Source: Sulfurimonas sp. HSL3-7 (GTDB taxonomy: Bacteria > Campylobacterota > Campylobacteria > Campylobacterales > Sulfurimonadaceae). From it: a stretch of DNA of 64,000 nucleotides. The stretch covers positions 2,666,001 through 2,730,000 of the forward strand of contig NZ_CP147919.1 of NCBI RefSeq assembly GCF_039645985.1. Direction: 5' to 3'. The position numbers and the translations under genes were made by a program. Below are positions 21,175 to 33,123 of the stretch, in pieces (position 1 is the stretch's first letter; every line of letters begins with the position of its first letter). Under the pieces are notes generated by a model that worked only from the letters and a program-made list of their open reading frames with translations, ran no database searches and had not been told where the DNA came from.

Positions 21175-22722
21175 TTAGCGGATTAGGTCAAAGAAGTAGT
21201 CTGTTGACGCGATACCTTTAGTATCTTCATCCAGTTGATCAAGGACCTTGTTTGTGATCCAGGTCAACAGGTTCAGCGCACCGTCGTACCCTGAGATAGA
21301 GTATCGGTGTAGGTGGTGACGGTCAAAGATCGGGAAGCCGATGTAGATCAAAGGCACGCCCGTGTCACGCATAAGCTCTTTACCGTACGAGTTACCGATC
21401 ATGAAGTCAACCGGCTCAGTAAAGAGAAGTGAACGCATGTGCCACAGGTCTTTACCAGCCCAGACGTTCAGGTCAGCAGCAGCCGGAGAAGTATCAAGCA
21501 GTGCTCTCATCTCTTCTTCCCAACCGCGTGGTGCATTGTGACACAGCACGTGTGTCGGCTCAGCACCCATCTCGAGTAGGAATGAAACCGCACCGATCAG
21601 GAAGTCAGGGTCACCCCAGATCGCGAATTTCTTACCGTGCATATACGGATAAGAATCCTGCATAGCATCGACAAGACGGCCGCGCTCGGTTTTAAGTTTT
21701 TCAGGTACTTCTTTTCCTGTCAACTCAGCGATTTTCATGACAAACTCATCTGTCCCTTTAAGACCGATCGGGTTAAGGTTTGCGCTCTCTTTCTGTTTCC
21801 AACGTTTTGTCACCATTTTCATGGTTTTTACTGTTGCATACTTCTGTAGAGAGATCGTTGCTTTAGAGTTTTTACAATCTTTAGCATCTTCGATCGTCGT
21901 ACCGCCGGCGAACATTTTGTAATCACCAGCCGGCATGTCCCACTGGTCAGAGTGGTCGCCCAACATAGTGTACTCGGCACCGAAAGACTCGACGATAGAT
22001 TTAATAGAACGGATCGAACCGATATATGTCTCAAAACCAGGGATGATGTTGATTTTATCGTTTTTCTTCTCTTCAACACCCTCTGTCAACTGCGACATAA
22101 TACCGTGCATCATGTTGTCGTAACCCGTAATGTGGCTACCTGTAAATGACGGTGTATGCGCATATGTGATCGGATAGTCTTCCGGCAGGTACTCGCCGCC
22201 GTCTTCCTCTTTCGCCGCTGTAGCAAACGCATAAAGGTCATCACCGATAACCTCTGCCATACATGTTGTAGAGACAGCGATCATTTTCGGCTTATAGACA
22301 GCCGCACAGTTTTTAAGACCGTCTTTCATGTTGACAAGACCGCCGAAAACCGCCGCGTCTTCTGTCATCGAGTCGGAAACACATGGTGTCGGCTCTTTGA
22401 AGTGACGTGTGAAGTATGAACGGAAATACGCAACACATCCGTGTGAACCGTGAACATACGGCATTGTCTCTTCAAATCCTAGTGCAACCATAACGGCACC
22501 AAGCGGCTGACACGCTTTTGCCGGGTTGACCGTGATCGCTTCGCGGGCAAGGTTTTTCTCGCGGTAATCCCACGTTTTTGTCCACTCAGCGATCTCTTTT
22601 ACTTTCTCAGGGTTTACGGCACCGTAACCCCCTTCGAACTCTTTTTTCTTCTTTAGTACGTCTTGGTACTCTGGTCTTTGGAACAGCTTTTGGCCGTTCA
22701 TGATGTTATCGACTTCTTGCAT
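21175..22722 (-). CDS. nifK: Nitrogenase MoFe protein beta subunit
   Basis: 515 residues. With NifD forms the alpha2-beta2 MoFe protein and shares the P cluster. P-cluster cysteine regions are seen in AKACQPLGA, HGSHGCVAYFRSYFTRHFKEP and the CMAEVIGDDL segment. Also present is the typical MNGQKLFQRPEYQ opening. The ATG shares one base with the nifD stop (TAATG), so the two are coupled for 1:1 synthesis. A start eight codons upstream inside nifD is not needed. Full length for the shorter NifK type. Confidence 0.97.
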   Translation of the reverse strand: MQEVDNIMNGQKLFQRPEYQDVLKKKKEFEGGYGAVNPEKVKEIAEWTKTWDYREKNLAREAITVNPAKACQPLGAVMVALGFEETMPYVHGSHGCVAYFRSYFTRHFKEPTPCVSDSMTEDAAVFGGLVNMKDGLKNCAAVYKPKMIAVSTTCMAEVIGDDLYAFATAAKEEDGGEYLPEDYPITYAHTPSFTGSHITGYDNMMHGIMSQLTEGVEEKKNDKINIIPGFETYIGSIRSIKSIVESFGAEYTMLGDHSDQWDMPAGDYKMFAGGTTIEDAKDCKNSKATISLQKYATVKTMKMVTKRWKQKESANLNPIGLKGTDEFVMKIAELTGKEVPEKLKTERGRLVDAMQDSYPYMHGKKFAIWGDPDFLIGAVSFLLEMGAEPTHVLCHNAPRGWEEEMRALLDTSPAAADLNVWAGKDLWHMRSLLFTEPVDFMIGNSYGKELMRDTGVPLIYIGFPIFDRHHLHRYSISGYDGALNLLTWITNKVLDQLDEDTKGIASTDYFFDLIR

Positions 22723-24194
22723 TACGCTTCTCCTTCTGATTCCCAAGGTGCTTTGCTATGTCCCCAAACCGGAGAGTTGATAGCAAGGTCCATGTCTGCT
22801 GCAAAGATCGCGAATCCGTCATATCCATGGTACGGACCGCTGTAATCCCATGAGTGCATCTGACGGTATGGCAGACCCATTTTCTGGAACACATATTTCT
22901 CTTTAATACCTGAAGCGACCAAGTCTGGCTCAAGTTTTTTAACAAAGGCTTCAAGTTCGTACTCATTAACATCATCATAGATGACAGTCGAACGGAAGAT
23001 CTCATCTTTAGTACGTTTGTAATCGTCGTCGTGGGCGAACTCATAACCTGTACCGATAACTTCCATACCAAGATCTTCGTAAGCGCCGATAACGTGACGA
23101 GGACGTAGACCACCGACAAACAACATAACCTGCTTGCCTTCAAGACGTGGACGGTACTTCTCAGTTACAGCATCGATCATCGGCTGATACTTCGCGATCA
23201 CTTCTTCACATTTCGCCTGGATAGACTCGTCGAAGAACGCTGCGATCTTGCGAAGTGATTTGATCGTCTGGCTTGGACCGAAGAAGTTGTACTCAACCCA
23301 AGGAATACCGAACTCTTTCTCCATGTGACGGGAGATGTAGTTCATTGAACGGTAACAGTGAAGTAGGTTCAATTTTACTTTCGGTGTGGCAGCCATCTCT
23401 TTAAGAGTAGCATCACCTGACCACTGAGCAACAACACGTAGACCCATCTCTTCGAGAAGGATACGGCTTGACCATGCATCACCACCGATGTTATAGTCAC
23501 CGATGATAGCAACATCATAATCAGTCTGCTCGATCGCTTCACCCAATGTGTCGATGTTACCGTCGAAAACGTAGTCACGAACCGTGTCATTTGCGATGTG
23601 GTGACCTAGAGATTGAGAAACCCCGCGGAAACCTTCACAGTTTACCGGAACGATTGTGTTACCTGTCTTCTTAGCATACTGTTTTGATGTCGCATTGATA
23701 TCATCACCGATCAGACCGATCGGACACTCAGATTGAACTGTGATACCGTTGTTCAACGGGAAAAGCTCGTCAATCTCTTCGAAACATACAGCAAGTTTTT
23801 TATCCCCGCCGAAAACGATATCTTTCTCTTGGAAATCCGAAGAGAAGTTCATCGTAACGAATGTATCGACACCAGTTGTACCGATGTAGTAGTTACGACG
23901 GCCGGCACGTGAGTACTGACCACAACCGATAGGACCGTGAGAGATATGAACCATATCTTTTACCGGACCCCATACAACACCTTTTGAACCGGCGTAAGCA
24001 CAACCACGTTGACTCATTACACCTGGAACAGTTTTCTTATTCGAACGGACGTTACCGCATGTTTTTTGACTTTCGTCTTCCGGTGAACCGACACCTAAGT
24101 GCTTCGCACGGTTTTTTGCCGCTTTCGAAGGGTATGCCTTAAGCACTTCCTCGATAGCTGCTTTCTGTTTTGCTTCCAATGATTCTGGACCCAT
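22722..24194 (-). CDS. nifD: Nitrogenase MoFe protein alpha subunit
   Basis: 490 residues. Carries P-cluster cysteines ([35 protein letters not shown]) and both FeMo-cofactor ligands: the cysteine in [10 protein letters not shown] and the histidine in [15 protein letters not shown]. The core motif [16 protein letters not shown] is typical. ATG at 24194 has AAGGAG seven bases upstream; the frame is open 11 codons further, without a site. Third gene of the operon, after nifH and a small unknown gene. Confidence 0.98.
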
Positions 24195-24327
24195 AGTATT
24201 CTCCTTCAAATTCTTTTTGATACTCAACTTCTGAACACTGGAATTGACCTCTAAAAGGGGATGATTGCAATGTCAGAAACAAGCAAGCCGGCCTAGGGCT
24301 CTGCTTGTCGGTGTGTTGACAGCCTGC

Positions 24328-24799: not shown

Positions 24800-25723
<924 letters not shown>

Positions 25724-25770
25724 TTAAACGACTCCGTTAAGACCCGTCCATGTACTTCGCAGCAATAGAT

Positions 25771-25785
25771 GCATTGTCTGTTCCC
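25771..25785 (-). promoter_or_regulatory. Sigma-54-type promoter of nifHDK
   Basis: GGGAACAGACAATGC read toward nifH, with GG-N10-GC; it has the GGAAC-N5-ATGC form seen at the other Campylobacterota-type promoters here. Predicted start near 25759. I found no NifA site of the form TGT-N10-ACA with exact spacing upstream. Confidence 0.7.
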
Positions 25786-25827
25786 GGTTTTTTGCCCTCT
25801 AAAAAGGGACAAAATCATTAATGCAGT

Positions 25828-25998
25828 GACAATTGTCGTAAAACCGGACATATTTGTAAGAATAGATTATGCAGCGCTTCGCTTTTTTGATCAATTGTCA
25901 TTAAACCGCCATGATTTAGGGTGTTTTTCATTTTGGTGACAAAAAATGTGTGGCAGACAAGTGTGACAATTTTTATACCAAAATTGTCGCAAAAGGCA
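25828..25998. promoter_or_regulatory. Cluster of GACAA/TTGTC dyads upstream of nifH
   Basis: Three dyads of one style: GACAATTGTC (25828-25837), CAATTG with TCATTAAACC beside it (about 25892-25906) and TGACAA...TTGTCGC spread over 25964-25991. Half-sites match the perfect palindrome at 12472. They lie 45-215 bases upstream of the nifH promoter, where an activator or repressor would sit. The region 25860-26260 is otherwise AT-rich and gene-free. Confidence 0.4.
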
Positions 25999-26284
25999 TA
26001 AAGACCACGGATAGGTGGTATAAATGAGAGTGAGTCTCATTATATAGCTTTTATTTATAATATACCAGCTGCTTTATAGAGAATTGTTGTCAGAAACCTA
26101 TCGATAACGATATTACGATATCTGATTTTTTTAGATCTGTCTGTAAAAATGTTATGACATTCAAGGTGATATCACATTCCTCTCGATTCTATATTTAATA
26201 GATGTATTGCCCGGATTGCATTTCAACTTTCTTGTTTTAATGTTCAGCATACACTTTTGGGTTTTTTAAATTTCTTCATATCGT

Positions 26285-27110: not shown

Positions 27111-27211
27111 AATCGTTCAAGCTGCCATAAAAAGAAAGCCGTCCAGTTGATAAACCGGATATGTCAAAAGATAGAGGGGTTAAAAGTTCCCGCTTTCGCA
27201 GGAAAAGAGAT

Positions 27212-28723
27212 TTATTTGGATTTTTCCAGATGGTACACATTCAAATTCGTCCGGCGGAACCCGCGACGCGTATAGAACTGCAGCGCATTGGTGTTGTCCA
27301 TGTCCGCGGCGAGCTGGATACGCTTGTAGCCGTACTCCTCGATGGCAATAAAGCGCATCTTGTTGATGAGCCGGCTGCCGACCCCCATCTTGCGGTACTC
27401 TTCCTTGACCACCAGGTCTTCGATCTGCCCGACGAAATCGCCGGCTGCACTGGAGATGAGCCGCTGCATCGTCACCATGCCGACCACCCTGCCTTCATGT
27501 TTGGCGACCAGCAGGTCAGCCCCTTCACAGCGGTAGAGTTTCTGAACCCCGGCCAGCTGCTTGTCGTAATCGATCTCAAAATCAACCTCTATCGCAAACA
27601 GTATACCGATCAGTTCCGCCATCTCCGGCAGATCCTCTTCTCGGGCTTTTTCGACCGTTATACCTGTTTTCATGTTGATGTCGCAGATATCCGGGTGCAG
27701 GACTTTGATCACTTTTTTGGCCTCCTCGTTTAGCGGGTTACCCCCGATGTACAACGTCTGCAGCCGTGTCATATTGGCCATGGCATTCGGGAGTTCCGAA
27801 ATGCCGTTACCGTCAATATCCAGCTGGCTGAGCTTGGTATACTTCCCGATCTCTTCGGGAATCGCCGTAATGGCATTGGAAGAGAAACAGAGTGATTCCA
27901 GTTCGAGCGAAGGCACCGAGACAAAACGCTGCAGTTCGCAGCTGTCGCAGGAGAACTCCTTGAGATACGGAGCAAAGCTCTCATCCACTTCGATCTCCCG
28001 GATCGGATTGTTGTCGAGGATGATTGTCTCCAGATCATCAAGGTCGTGAAGATAGAGTACCCTGATCTGGTTTGACGAGAGGTCGATCTCTTCAAGCCCC
28101 AGAAAGAAAAAGGCCTCGTCCAGTTTTGTCAGGCGGTTGTCCGAAAGGTTGATCTCGACGATCTCACCCATTTCCCCGATACCGGCCGGGATCTCGCTTA
28201 GAATGTTCTGCGAGAGGTTGAGCCGTTCCACCTGCTGCAGCAGAGGAAAAGCGCTTCCCATCTCTTTGATAAAATTGCCCGCAAGGTTAAGCGTACGCAG
28301 TTCGTTCTCCGGCGAGAGCATCCCCTCGACCGTCGTCAGGTTGTTGCTGCTGAGATCCAGTACCCGAAGATGACGGCACGCCTTCAAAACCGAGATGTCG
28401 CTGATATTATTGCCGCCGGCATTCAACGAGCGGAGGGTCAATCCCGCCAGGACCTCAGGCAGCGCCTTAAAACGGTTGCGGCGAATGTCAAGGTTGTTCA
28501 ACATGGTGAGGTTTGCGATGGAGTCGGGCAGTTTCGTCAAGTTGTTGTTAGCAAGGTTGAGCACCACCAGACCGCGCAAAAGACCGAGCGTCTCGGGAAG
28601 CTCTTCGAGAGAACGTCCGCTCAGGTCAAGACGTTTGAGCCCCTCGGGCGAAACGACCTCTTCCTCGATGGCGCGCTGCTCGATAAGCCACCCTTTTAAT
28701 GCCTCCCATTCTGTACTGCCCAT
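27212..28723 (-). CDS. Leucine-rich-repeat protein fused to a GNAT acetyltransferase
   Basis: 503 residues. Residues about 25-345 are some 14 leucine-rich repeats (LxxLxLxxNxLxxLP, e.g. LVVLNLANNNLTKLP, LRVLDLSSNNLTTVEG). From about 355 to the end is a GNAT domain: ITVEKAREEDLPEMAELIGILF, then VGQIEDLVVKEEYRKMGVGSRLINKMRFIA with the acetyl-CoA loop, and NALQFYTRRGFRR. The start at 28723 shares its A with the upstream stop (TGATG), with AAGGAG eight bases before. Last gene of the nifB operon. LRR would choose the protein target and GNAT acetylate it; the target is unknown. Confidence 0.88.
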   Translation of the reverse strand: MGSTEWEALKGWLIEQRAIEEEVVSPEGLKRLDLSGRSLEELPETLGLLRGLVVLNLANNNLTKLPDSIANLTMLNNLDIRRNRFKALPEVLAGLTLRSLNAGGNNISDISVLKACRHLRVLDLSSNNLTTVEGMLSPENELRTLNLAGNFIKEMGSAFPLLQQVERLNLSQNILSEIPAGIGEMGEIVEINLSDNRLTKLDEAFFFLGLEEIDLSSNQIRVLYLHDLDDLETIILDNNPIREIEVDESFAPYLKEFSCDSCELQRFVSVPSLELESLCFSSNAITAIPEEIGKYTKLSQLDIDGNGISELPNAMANMTRLQTLYIGGNPLNEEAKKVIKVLHPDICDINMKTGITVEKAREEDLPEMAELIGILFAIEVDFEIDYDKQLAGVQKLYRCEGADLLVAKHEGRVVGMVTMQRLISSAAGDFVGQIEDLVVKEEYRKMGVGSRLINKMRFIAIEEYGYKRIQLAADMDNTNALQFYTRRGFRRTNLNVYHLEKSK

Positions 28724-28992
28724 CACTCTGCTCCTTCCGCCAGCCGCTTTATGCGTTCGAGGCGCTGTTCGATGAGATGCTCGATCTCATCAAAGTCGAA
28801 ACTACCGAATTGGTTCATGTCAAACAGTTTCAGCAGTGCCGCACGGCAGCAGCTCTTATTGCATTCCGTCACCAGTTTTTTTGCTTTTTTAAAAGGCAGC
28901 GATGTATTTTGAAAGATCTCTATCGCCTGTGCCACATCTTTTTCGCCGCACTCGCAGATCTGCATCGACAGAATTTCTTCTTTGGTCTTCAT
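28723..28992 (-). CDS. Small cysteine protein of the nifB operon
   Basis: 89 residues. Five cysteines: CEC at about 13-15 and CNKSCC near 44-49, separated by a helix. The layout is a little like bacterioferritin-associated ferredoxin domains (CxC...CxxC), which bind 2Fe-2S, but the spacing of the second pair differs. Coupled to the LRR/GNAT gene by a stop/start overlap. Confidence 0.7.
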   Translation of the reverse strand: MKTKEEILSMQICECGEKDVAQAIEIFQNTSLPFKKAKKLVTECNKSCCRAALLKLFDMNQFGSFDFDEIEHLIEQRLERIKRLAEGAE

Positions 28993-29059: not shown

Positions 29060-29254
29060 TTACAGTCCGTTTTCAGCTTTGAATTTATTGGCCTCTTCGA
29101 CTGCCGCACGCAGTTTTTCACTCAACTCCGGCATTTTCACATAATCGGTCCAGAGCGTATCTTCGACAATATCATGGATCTCGGAGGCGAGTTCCACCGC
29201 CATACGTTTACGTTTCGCCAGCTCTTTTTTCAGTACTTTTATATCTTCAGACAT
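29060..29254 (-). CDS. CCE_0567/Rop-like (DUF683) nif-associated protein
   Basis: 64 residues, a helical hairpin: VLKKELAKRKRMAVELASEIHDIVEDTLWTDYVKMPELSEKLRAAVEEANKFKA. The EIHDIVEDTLW...YxxxPEL pattern is that of the small Rop-like proteins found in nif clusters beside nifX; the cyanobacterial member CCE_0567 is a four-helix-bundle dimer that binds nickel or other metal. Good AAGGAG site. Confidence 0.85.
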   Translation of the reverse strand: MSEDIKVLKKELAKRKRMAVELASEIHDIVEDTLWTDYVKMPELSEKLRAAVEEANKFKAENGL

Positions 29255-29309: not shown

Positions 29310-29540
29310 TCAGGCAGCGATAGGGTGGACCTCGATCAGCCTTGCTTCATCTTTACGCAGCGCGATCAACGAACGGTTTATCATCACCTGAACGGTACTT
29401 TTAAAACATCCGAAATGTTTGACGCATATATGCGCATCACGGGTCAGCCCCATCGCACAGAGGCGCTGTTTCAGTTTCCCTTCGACATTGATGGCATCAA
29501 CAGCCACCATCTCGCCTTTTTTCATATTCAACAGACACAT
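29310..29540 (-). CDS. FeoA-domain protein
   Basis: 76 residues forming one SH3-like FeoA domain: LLNMKKGEMVAVDAINVEGKLKQRLCAMGLTRDAHICVKH, then MINRSLIALRKDEARLIEV. FeoA domains help ferrous transport or regulate; small FeoA-like genes recur in nif clusters, where iron demand is high. Start at 29540 has AAGGAG; the open frame reaches 23 codons further without a site. Confidence 0.88.
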   Translation of the reverse strand: MCLLNMKKGEMVAVDAINVEGKLKQRLCAMGLTRDAHICVKHFGCFKSTVQVMINRSLIALRKDEARLIEVHPIAA

Positions 29541-29625
29541 GTTAACTCCTTGTTTCCGTGATTGACAGCACGGTTCATCTGTGCGTGAGCCCACTGCTGA
29601 AGTGAACACAGCGTTAGCGTAGTCA

Positions 29626-29650: not shown

Positions 29651-30478
29651 CTACAATGAAAATGCATATATATTTTCAAAACGAACATCGCTGCCTTCAC
29701 CACGACTCATGTGAATAAAGCGCTGTTTGTTTTGAAAATGGTAACGGTTGTAAAGATCGACCACATGTTCCGCTCCAAGCGGAACATCGGCGACCACTTT
29801 TTTAAGGCCGCGGAAATAGAGCACGCCGCGCATCATCTTCTCAGCCTCATCCTCGTGCCCTTTTCGCACCTGCCACGGTCCGAGATAGACATGGCGGGCG
29901 TTGACGACGGAGGAGTGCTGAAAACCGTTGGGGAGAGTGAACTTGAGCGAAGAGTTCCGCTCCATCTCATCCAACAGAAAGTCCATACGGTTCTCGTGAA
30001 AGGTCTCCTTGTCGATCGCGGCGATAACAGATTCGAAATTGCTTCCGTCCAGCTCTTTCGCATGGGCGTTGGTAAAGTTGAACGGCGGGACCTTGCCGAC
30101 ATTGACAAAGCGTCCCACCTCCATCTTGGATTCAAAACCGTAGCGCTCGAAAAACGGCACCAGATTCGGGTTGGCATGCAGATAGACCTTGCGCTCGTCT
30201 TTGTCGATCGCACCGAAAAGGGTCTCGAACAGGCGTCGGCCGACGCCCTGTTTCTGATGGCTCTCTCTGACCATAAAATATTTCATCATCAAGGAGTGTT
30301 CGAACTCGATCGCCATCACGGCACCAACGAGTTTCCCCTCGTCATAGGCACCGTAACAGAGATGTGGCGAGTGCATCATCATCAACTTGACATGGTAGCC
30401 GTCGACCAGCCAGCCCACCTCATCGGCGATCGCGACCAGTTCGCTCACGTCGGCAAATTTCAACCACCCTATAAACAT
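29651..30478 (-). CDS. GNAT acetyltransferase in the nifB operon
   Basis: 275 residues. N-terminal GNAT: KLVGAVMAIEFEHSLMMKYFMVRESHQKQGVGRRLFETLF, with the acetyl-CoA loop HQKQGVGRRL near 75-84, then VYLHANPNLVPFFERYGF. The C-terminal half (about 130-275) looks like a second, degenerate GNAT-like unit. It overlaps the end of nifV by 10 bases. An acetyltransferase coupled to homocitrate synthase is unusual; its acceptor is unknown. Confidence 0.8.
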   Translation of the reverse strand: MFIGWLKFADVSELVAIADEVGWLVDGYHVKLMMMHSPHLCYGAYDEGKLVGAVMAIEFEHSLMMKYFMVRESHQKQGVGRRLFETLFGAIDKDERKVYLHANPNLVPFFERYGFESKMEVGRFVNVGKVPPFNFTNAHAKELDGSNFESVIAAIDKETFHENRMDFLLDEMERNSSLKFTLPNGFQHSSVVNARHVYLGPWQVRKGHEDEAEKMMRGVLYFRGLKKVVADVPLGAEHVVDLYNRYHFQNKQRFIHMSRGEGSDVRFENIYAFSL

Positions 30479-31581
30479 AGGCTCTCCCTGTACAGACTTA
30501 CAAGCTCCGCATCGTCAAGCACGCGTTTGCGCGAGGTGACGATCTCGCGGATACGCGGCAGCAGGTGACGCAAAGCATGTTTTTCTGCACTGATTCCCAG
30601 TTCTTTTAAATGGTAAAGAATCGTACCCGTACCGGAGTGTTTTCCGATCGGAAAGGCACGCTGACAAGCAACTTCTTCAGCAGCGAAAGGCTCGTAGGCA
30701 CGGCCGTCTTTCATCATGCCGTCGGCGTGAATGCCGCTTTCATGCGAGAAGATATGGTCCCCGACGATCGGGGCATTATGTGCAAGACTCACGCCGGCAG
30801 CCTCAGCCACGATATCCACAAGCGTTCGCATCCCAAGTGCATCGAAATGACGCGCCTGGTCATAAAGATGCTTCAACGCCATGGAGATCTGTTCAAATGA
30901 GGCATTGCCTGCGCGTTCACCCAGGCCTATTACGGTGGTGTTGACGCTAACGGCCCCGGCATCGAGACCGCTGAGGGCGTTGGCGTTGGCAAGACCGAAA
31001 TCGTTATGCGTATGCATTTCTATCGGAAGGAGATGTAACGATGTCAATGCTTTTATATCCGCATACGTTTGTGTCGGTGTCATAATCCCGACGGTGTCGC
31101 AGTAGCGAAAGCGGTCTGCACCAAGTTCCCGTCCAAGCGTCATGACCTCTTCAATGAAGCCGAACGAACCGCGTGAGCTGTCTTCGCCGCCGATACAGAC
31201 AAAAAGCCCTTCGGCCTTTGCCGTAACAATGGTCTTTTCAAGCTCTTTGAGCATGGCCGCTTTGTTGCCGCCGAATTTAACGTCAATCAGGATGTCTGAG
31301 ACAGGAATGGAGAGATCGACCGATTTTACACCGCATGCCAAAGAGGCGTCAAGATCGCTCATCTTGGCACGGTTCCAGGTCATCATACGTGTATTCAACC
31401 CCAATGCGAGCAGCTCTTTGATGTCCTCTTGCTCACGCACGCCCATAGCGGGAATGCCGATCTCGAGTTCATCCGCGCCGCAGGCTGCAAGCCCTTCGGC
31501 GATAGCGAGCTTCTCTTTGGTGTTGAATGCTACGTAGGGTGCCTGTTCCCCGTCGCGCAGTGTCGTATCGTTGATCAACAT
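30469..31581 (-). CDS. nifV: Homocitrate synthase
   Basis: 370 residues. Condenses acetyl-CoA with 2-oxoglutarate to homocitrate, the organic part of FeMo-cofactor. DRE-TIM signature DTTLRDGEQAP at 5-15, the metal ligands in MHTHNDFGLANANAL, and SGIHADGMMKDGRAYEPF near 285. Two ATG codons are adjacent; the second has the better spacing to AAGGAAG. Follows nifB on the same strand. Confidence 0.95.
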   Translation of the reverse strand: MLINDTTLRDGEQAPYVAFNTKEKLAIAEGLAACGADELEIGIPAMGVREQEDIKELLALGLNTRMMTWNRAKMSDLDASLACGVKSVDLSIPVSDILIDVKFGGNKAAMLKELEKTIVTAKAEGLFVCIGGEDSSRGSFGFIEEVMTLGRELGADRFRYCDTVGIMTPTQTYADIKALTSLHLLPIEMHTHNDFGLANANALSGLDAGAVSVNTTVIGLGERAGNASFEQISMALKHLYDQARHFDALGMRTLVDIVAEAAGVSLAHNAPIVGDHIFSHESGIHADGMMKDGRAYEPFAAEEVACQRAFPIGKHSGTGTILYHLKELGISAEKHALRHLLPRIREIVTSRKRVLDDAELVSLYRESLCL

Positions 31582-31704
31582 CATCTTCCTTTTTATCTCA
31601 AATCGACTAAAACATCTACCGCTTTAGAAGAACAATCCCTTACATTTCCTGCCCAGGAAGGGCAAGCTATCATGCCTTCGCGGCTAGCATCGAGCGACAA
31701 ACGG

Positions 31705-33123
31705 TTAATTCGCTTCCAACTCTTCGGGCAGGTTAAAGTACTTGCGTGTCGCTTTAAGCACCGACGCTTCGATCGGCTCGTACGCATAACTCTGGTCTGC
31801 GATCAGTCCTGCAGCCTTAAGGTCATCCTGCGGACAACCGCCGATCTTCGCCGTCAGGATCAAGGCACAGTCTTTGAGTTTTTCCAGGATAGGTTCGATC
31901 GGGTTGCCGCCTTCCGGTCCCGCACAGTACTCGTAATCGAGTTTACGGTGATGGATAAAACGGATACCGCGGTCACCCGCTTCATAGATCAGGAACTCTC
32001 TGACCGAACCGAAGTGCTGGTTGATCATCCCCTCGCCCGCTGTTGTAACGGCGACAAGAATGGTCTGACCGTCGCTGGCAAGGTTCTCTTTCTCCTGGCG
32101 GACACGTTCGTTCGCCTGGTCAAGGAAGAAACGGAACTCTTCGATCTTCGCCTGGCTCTCTTGGCGCGCTGTAATGTTGTAGTGCTGTTCCAGGGCGTCA
32201 AACGACATCTCCGAGAAGACATCTTTCGTAAATTCCTGTCCGCGGTCCTCACCGATAAGGCCGACGGCATCCGCACGGCACTGGCGGCAGTGCTGCATCA
32301 ACTTCATGTCCATGCCGCACGCTTCCTGTACTTCCATCTGCTGCTGATCGGTTGCCGAAGGCACACCGTCGAGTCCAAATTTCGTACCATGTTCCGGCTC
32401 AGAGATGATCGGCATGATATTGTGTAAGAAAACACCGATCTCTTTAAGTTTTTTCGCCACCTCAGGAAGGTGTTTGTCGTTGATACCCGGGATCAGTACC
32501 GAGTTGGCTTTGATAAGAATGCCGTTTTCAACACACTTTTTCATTCCTTCAAGCTGACGCTCAAGAAGAATTTTGGCAGCCTCTTTTCCATAGATACGTT
32601 TGTTGTTGTAGAAGATCCATGGATAGATCTGCGAACCGATCTCCCCGGTCGTATCGACACTGTTGATTGTAACGGTGACGTGGTCAATGTCGTATTTGAC
32701 CATCTCGTCGACAAAGGTCGGCAGTTCCAGACCGTTTGTGGAAAGACAGAGTTTAAGGTCAGGTGCTTTTTCGCGCACCAGCTCAAAGGTCTTAAACGTC
32801 TTTTCCGGGTTGGCAAGAGCATCTCCCGGACCTGCGATCCCGAGTACGCTCAGACGCTGGACTTCACCGCCGACGTACATCACTTTCTTCGCCGACTCTT
32901 CCGGTGTCAAGCGCTCGCTTGTAACACCCGGACGGCTCTCGTTGGAACAGTCGTATTTACGGTTACAGTAATTACACTGTATATTACACGCCGGTGCTAC
33001 GGCAACGTGGATACGGGCATAGTGGTGGTGGGCACCCTCTGAATAACAGGGGTGGTCATGGATCTTGTCCTGGATATCTGCAGGTAGTGCAGATTCGGCC
33101 GGATTACTTGAACTACAGCTCAT
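31705..33123 (-). CDS. nifB: FeMo-cofactor biosynthesis protein NifB with C-terminal NifX domain
   Basis: 472 residues. Radical-SAM enzyme that builds the carbide-centred NifB-co. SAM cluster motif in CNIQCNYCNRKYDC (about 49-62), further cluster cysteines in MQHCRQCRADAVGLIGED (near 275). The NifX/NafY-like carrier domain starts near 350 (ILVAVTTAGEGMINQHFGSVREFLIY) and ends IGGCPQDDLKAAGL. First gene of its operon, behind a sigma-54-type promoter. Confidence 0.97.
   Translation of the reverse strand: MSCSSSNPAESALPADIQDKIHDHPCYSEGAHHHYARIHVAVAPACNIQCNYCNRKYDCSNESRPGVTSERLTPEESAKKVMYVGGEVQRLSVLGIAGPGDALANPEKTFKTFELVREKAPDLKLCLSTNGLELPTFVDEMVKYDIDHVTVTINSVDTTGEIGSQIYPWIFYNNKRIYGKEAAKILLERQLEGMKKCVENGILIKANSVLIPGINDKHLPEVAKKLKEIGVFLHNIMPIISEPEHGTKFGLDGVPSATDQQQMEVQEACGMDMKLMQHCRQCRADAVGLIGEDRGQEFTKDVFSEMSFDALEQHYNITARQESQAKIEEFRFFLDQANERVRQEKENLASDGQTILVAVTTAGEGMINQHFGSVREFLIYEAGDRGIRFIHHRKLDYEYCAGPEGGNPIEPILEKLKDCALILTAKIGGCPQDDLKAAGLIADQSYAYEPIEASVLKATRKYFNLPEELEAN

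Follow-up and report, generated by a model that had tools for sequence, protein, structure and literature searches.

Why does a protein that joins leucine-rich repeats (LRRs) to a GNAT acetyltransferase domain stand at the end of a nitrogen fixation operon, and on what might it act? The gene lies in a window of 64,000 nucleotides from Sulfurimonas sp. HSL3-7 (contig NZ_CP147919.1, positions 2,666,001 to 2,730,000), the whole stretch of DNA analysed here. An original prediction, made from the sequence letters, placed it at 27212-28723 and proposed that the LRRs recognise a protein for the GNAT to acetylate, so that nitrogenase or its assembly factors may be regulated by acetylation. These coordinates are correct; the prediction gave no strand, and the gene reads on the minus strand. 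It is surrounded by the following features:

31705-33123, minus strand: nifB, the first gene of the operon (TIGR01290, 5.5e-171, 569 bits against a cut-off of 344)
30469-31584, minus strand: nifV, homocitrate synthase (TIGR02660, 3.9e-138, 460.7 bits, slightly below the cut-off of 462.9)
29651-30478, minus strand: GNAT2, 275 aa, with a GNAT domain at aa 29-118 (Pfam)
29310-29609, minus strand: FeoA-domain protein (PF04023, 6.8e-16)
29060-29254, minus strand: Rop-like protein (PF05082, 7.3e-12)
28723-28992, minus strand: smallCys, 89 aa, with five cysteines invariant in the alignment
27212-28723, minus strand: LRR-GNAT fusion, 503 aa (cap 1-28, 14 LRRs 29-343, joint 347-352, GNAT 356-500)
27160-27211, minus strand: possible intrinsic terminator TTCCTGCGAAAGCGGGAACTTTT, directly 3' of the LRR-GNAT stop codon, spotted by eye in the sequence
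24800-25708, minus strand: nifH (ORF translation, which served as a query)
22722-24227: nifD (ORF translation)
21175-22746: nifK (ORF translation)

The operon runs nifB-nifV-GNAT2-FeoA-Rop-like-smallCys-LRR-GNAT on one strand (minus), with nifHDK some 1.5 kb past the LRR-GNAT gene. nifV and GNAT2 overlap by 10 bp, and the likelier start of the FeoA-domain gene appears to be the ATG at 29540, giving about 76 aa as in the 76-aa orthologue at locus L049. The predicted coupling of the fusion to a small cysteine protein at the end of the nifB operon was borne out by the identification of the neighbours and by the sequence TGATG, in which the smallCys stop codon and the LRR-GNAT start codon share one base.

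Pfam matches and an AlphaFold2 model (mean pLDDT 89) agreed with the predicted arrangement of about 14 LRRs followed by an acetyltransferase. Tandem LxxLxLxxNxL repeats forming a solenoid, as in LRR proteins (PF13855, PF12799), gave clear matches (LRR_8 1e-32, LRR_4 3e-30; 111.9 bits), and in the model a helical N-terminal cap is followed by 14 LRR strands, which begin at aa 31, 54, 77, 99, 121, 144, 167, 190, 212, 233, 256, 277, 300 and 323, by a joint around CDINMK at aa 347-352 and by a GNAT fold at 356-500. The best fold matches to the LRR part were Leptospira LIC10831 and LIC11098 and SHOC2, which have no acetyltransferase, whereas LRR-GNAT combines the two and sits in a nif operon. Conservation was higher on the concave than on the convex LRR face, but an unrelated LRR family taken from these genomes behaved likewise, and we did not take the pattern as proof of a ligand.

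The acetyltransferase part matched Acetyltransf_1 (PF00583) at aa 396-489 with 6e-18 and 65.6 bits, well above the curated cut-off of 20.7. Its acetyl-CoA motif A is intact (R444-K-M-G447-V-G449, RKMGVG) and conserved across the family with few exceptions; the loop is whole in nearly all fused or adjacent domains of this family (GNAT1), two fused ones having one glycine changed. No NCBIfam equivalog cut-off was reached by the GNAT of LRR-GNAT. A PDB profile search returned small-amine enzymes (AAC-type, PaiA) as the closest structures by sequence, protein N-acetyltransferases ranking lower, and we regard the fused GNAT as equally close, in sequence terms, to small-amine and protein acetyltransferases. 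With PaiA, AAC-type and RimI-like GNATs it has in common motif A (R-x-x-G-V-G) and an FY motif, as the Pfam, NCBIfam and PDB matches indicate; unlike them, it is fused to LRRs and confined to nif genomes.

This confinement was evident at several levels. In other genomes of the family, full-length LRR-GNAT orthologues were found with 58-82% identity, with two more at 41-43%, and most were seen at the equivalent position of the nifB operon; since they recur in this way, the architecture is not a product of chance. The 60 relatives examined included 14 genomes of the family that have NifB, and every one of these carried LRR-GNAT in full length (9) or just a homologue of its GNAT domain (5). We then surveyed 397 Campylobacterota genomes, 74 with and 323 without nifB. 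SmallCys was present in 72/74 nifB-positive and 1/323 nifB-negative genomes (Fisher 9e-76). For the GNAT1 family the counts were 64/74 and 6/323 (Fisher 1e-55), and for ORFs of LRR-GNAT length 15/74 and 0/323 (Fisher 3e-12); these p-values exaggerate the nif association since the genomes share kinship, although its direction was the same throughout. The GNAT1 family was retained in nifB-positive genomes even when distant from nif.

SmallCys is thus almost strictly limited to nitrogen fixers among Campylobacterota. The sole nifB-negative genome that contained it, G278 (locus L223), had fragmented copies of nifB, nifV, GNAT2, LRR-GNAT and nifH, so that here LRR-GNAT is decaying jointly with nif. 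Two nifB-positive genomes (G242 and G388) yielded no smallCys. At loci L125, L135 and L137 smallCys was present and nif genes were absent from the fetched flanks. As a separate observation, smallCys at these three loci is followed by flavoprotein genes resembling SdhA/FrdA, with a ferredoxin-like gene in between in two of the three.

Outside Campylobacterota, the fusion was sought on plasmids and, indirectly, through a smallCys scan. Among 72,556 plasmid records no LRR-GNAT match covered more than 80% of the protein, which, together with the phylum counts, upheld a very strong tie to nif; a wide occurrence of the architecture away from nif, named in the original prediction as its refutation, was not found in either set. 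When 84,980 genome contig sets were screened for smallCys with peptide patterns favouring close relatives, 104 loci emerged, of which 80 were kept; these carried Campylobacterota names or names too vague to place, except for one labelled Proteobacteria, which groups with Sulfurospirillum. In the literature, with subscription papers poorly covered, no account turned up of a nif operon that includes an LRR or GNAT protein.

Comparison of the loci revealed three architectures. In nearly all loci smallCys lies immediately 5' of an LRR, LRR-GNAT or GNAT gene, mostly overlapping or abutting it. The slot after smallCys holds the LRR-GNAT fusion in Sulfurimonas-like lineages, a GNAT alone in Sulfuricurvum and a few others, and an LRR protein alone, of about 330 aa, in Sulfurospirillum, Arcobacter, Sulfurovum and Nitratifractor. 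LRR-only proteins end in the signature LE[YF]CD[VIL], which matches the joint of the fusions, where PEICD[IL]NMK, or LEYCDL in the divergent fusion L116, is followed by the GNAT. GNAT-only proteins begin just past this signature, and the start of the one at L110 retains EVCDIHMK. By these sequences, the LRR and the GNAT are two separable parts that have been fused and re-fused.

In the NifB tree, LRR-only loci formed one clade and fused plus GNAT-only loci the other. Separate LRR losses were placed in GNAT-only Sulfuricurvum, L059 and L110, and a further loss within the LRR-only clade at L211; on this tree the LRR was lost at least three times with a GNAT retained. Because the GNAT persists without the LRR (in Sulfuricurvum, L059 and L110) and the LRR persists unfused to any GNAT, neither needs the other in cis. 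The idea that the LRR is required for GNAT targeting found no support in this comparison: the LRR was lost repeatedly with a GNAT kept, and one of the two main clades has LRRs without a fused GNAT.

The LRR-only clade has GNAT relatives elsewhere in its genomes. Some lie immediately upstream of nifB; on the GNAT tree, built on 147 columns and with many forks unresolved, these fell in the other main clade than the fused domain and were rejected as its orthologues. In Arcobacter-like genomes, GNAT relatives of the same clade as the fused domain lie tens of kb away; others are unlinked. We also noted, in genomes without nifB, GNAT domains related to the nif-linked ones that share a protein with an MGMT-like domain and an AraC-type helix-turn-helix (L067, 1272-2552; L218, 2711-3991), Ada-like by sequence reading.

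These patterns bear on the possibility that the GNAT acetylates a small amine, such as a polyamine-like or toxic metabolite produced or encountered in the course of N2 fixation, and that the LRR fusion does no more than co-localise the enzyme. An aminoglycoside acetyltransferase and PaiA are among the solved structures that match best, the GNATs are found alone too, and a related GNAT-only clade and the Ada-type fusions occur in nif-minus genomes. However, such an activity would leave the fusion to a large LRR domain and the confinement to nif genomes unexplained, and we consider it quite unlikely.

The second GNAT named in the original prediction is real and belongs to the same operon, but it cannot be taken for an active enzyme throughout. 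Its acetyl-CoA loop was intact in 25/25 fused loci, here as KQGVGRR, and missing in 17/17 LRR-only loci carrying GNAT2, so acetyltransferase function should not be presumed for GNAT2 across the family. Loss of the loop with the gene kept in most loci suggests that GNAT2 is non-catalytic in the LRR-only clade (for example at L064 and L126). In the GNAT2 of the window, a second GNAT-like domain at aa 153-272 was weakly matched (Acetyltransf_18, Pfam). In the Sulfurospirillum loci nearest S. cavolei, both GNAT2 and the Rop-like gene are missing. Retention of GNAT2 after loop loss in 17/17 LRR-only loci would fit a non-catalytic role of the domains in general, in which the GNAT folds serve as acetyl-CoA sensors or as structural parts of an assembly complex. 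Given that 25/25 fused-locus GNAT2 proteins and almost every GNAT1 domain that is fused or adjacent, LRR-GNAT included, have the loop intact, we hold this general reading to be highly improbable.

The interpretation in the original prediction, which is supported in part, would make LRR-GNAT a protein lysine acetyltransferase devoted to the reversible regulation of nitrogenase or of NifB/NifV. Its confinement to nif genomes and the joining of LRRs to an acetyltransferase are in its favour, and there is a precedent in Zymomonas mobilis, whose NifH K12, NifK K395 and NifA K45 carry acetyl groups under N2-fixing conditions and whose nif island contains a SIR2 gene (PMC8600466). In the present case the cluster has no deacetylase, the GNAT is kept without the LRR, GNAT2 is degenerate in one clade and the GNAT structures nearest by sequence belong to enzymes of small amines (AAC-type, PaiA), all of which makes the proposal rather doubtful. 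The genome has a single SIR2, about 2.1 Mb distant by coordinate, which was dismissed as a nif-linked deacetylase partner.

The cysteines of smallCys (C13-x-C15-x28-C44-x3-C48-C49) were invariant in the alignment of 93 loci, and an AF2 model (pLDDT 85) predicted a helical fold with the cysteines in two loops. The best PDB match to the model was Bfd (Z 5.5, 55/56 residues, 2.2 A); Foldseek alone gave E 2.6. Comparison by hhalign with the NifU/Bfd domains of related genomes gave a weak score of 20.7 (probability 12%), higher than any control: 59 column shuffles reached at most 17.0 and the reversed profile 14.7. As read from the alignment ends, C13 and C15 correspond to positions 4 and 6 of Bfd, whose family (PF04324) includes the central domain of NifU, while the spacing differs, being CxC-x28-C-x3-CC in smallCys and about CxC-x31-C-x2-C in Bfd. 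Neither PF04324 (Bfd/NifU) nor other curated Pfam families matched any of 15 smallCys members, and profile matches to Pre-SET, EF-hand or similar domains (Pfam/PDB) had E values above 0.005 and were not believed. From the modelled fold and the weak profile match, we read smallCys as a probable divergent [2Fe-2S] domain of the Bfd/NifU type. Two proteins of NifU size that contain a Bfd domain are also encoded in the genome (G000:C1:148246 and 2639715), one of them about 26 kb before the window.

Residue 45, beside Cys44, offers a sequence-based lead to a contact site. Where an LRR is present, 55/56 loci have N at this position; where it is absent, 30/34 have D/E. The change from N to D coincides with three LRR losses (Sulfuricurvum, L059 and L211); with four independent supported contrasts only, the link is not significant (sign test p 0.25).

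A nif-linked protein of Azotobacter vinelandii, the LRV protein, resembles the present system in pairing repeats, in its case leucine-rich variant repeats, with an Fe-S domain. Its repeats are all-helical, in contrast to the classical 23-residue LRRs found here, which are separate from the cysteine protein and accompanied by a GNAT. The LRV and FeS4 families (PF01816, PF05484) gave no match to LRR-GNAT at E 0.01 and none at E 10 in 15 smallCys members.

Taking this evidence together, we propose, with about even chances of being right, that LRR-GNAT belongs to a nitrogenase accessory module specific to Campylobacterota, its LRR and GNAT parts both acting on one common nif partner. Gene content, nif confinement, co-translation, the separability and re-fusion of LRR and GNAT and the intact acetyl-CoA loop of the fused GNAT support such a module. 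Weighing against it are the persistence of GNAT and LRR unfused, the absence of smallCys from G242 and G388, its presence at L125, L135 and L137, the non-significant residue-45 link and the weak sequence match of smallCys to Bfd. The module would combine a small Bfd/NifU-like [2Fe-2S]-type protein with a GNAT enzyme and an LRR scaffold that are fused to each other in this lineage. We infer Fe-S binding by smallCys, a nif partner of the LRR (possibly smallCys) and a protein substrate of the GNAT. The likeliest partner to be docked by the LRR face would be the small Fe-S protein co-translated with it, or a factor that this protein serves, and the GNAT domain would modify the docked complex using acetyl-CoA. 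Iron or cluster delivery to NifB, NifU or nitrogenase could be tuned in this way, or the complex protected, the purpose being Fe-S/cofactor maturation, protection or regulation. The boldest version, a dedicated nif acetyltransferase anchored through its LRR to a new Bfd-like Fe-S protein and post-translationally controlling nitrogenase cofactor assembly in Campylobacterota, is tentative and, in our estimate, somewhat unlikely.

Found in 72/74 nifB-positive genomes and practically absent elsewhere, smallCys is a candidate missing nitrogenase-assembly part for the whole phylum. Should the GNAT act on a nif protein, it would be, to our knowledge, the first nif-dedicated acetyltransferase, and the effect of nitrogenase acetylation would become genetically testable.

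Finally, we looked for regulatory sites. Across the window, neither the palindrome TGACAATTGTCA nor sigma-54 -24/-12 sites occurred in excess over chance, and both were set aside. Several GACAATT/AATTGTC half-sites lie 5' of nifH (25700-26000 of the window) and could bind a regulator.
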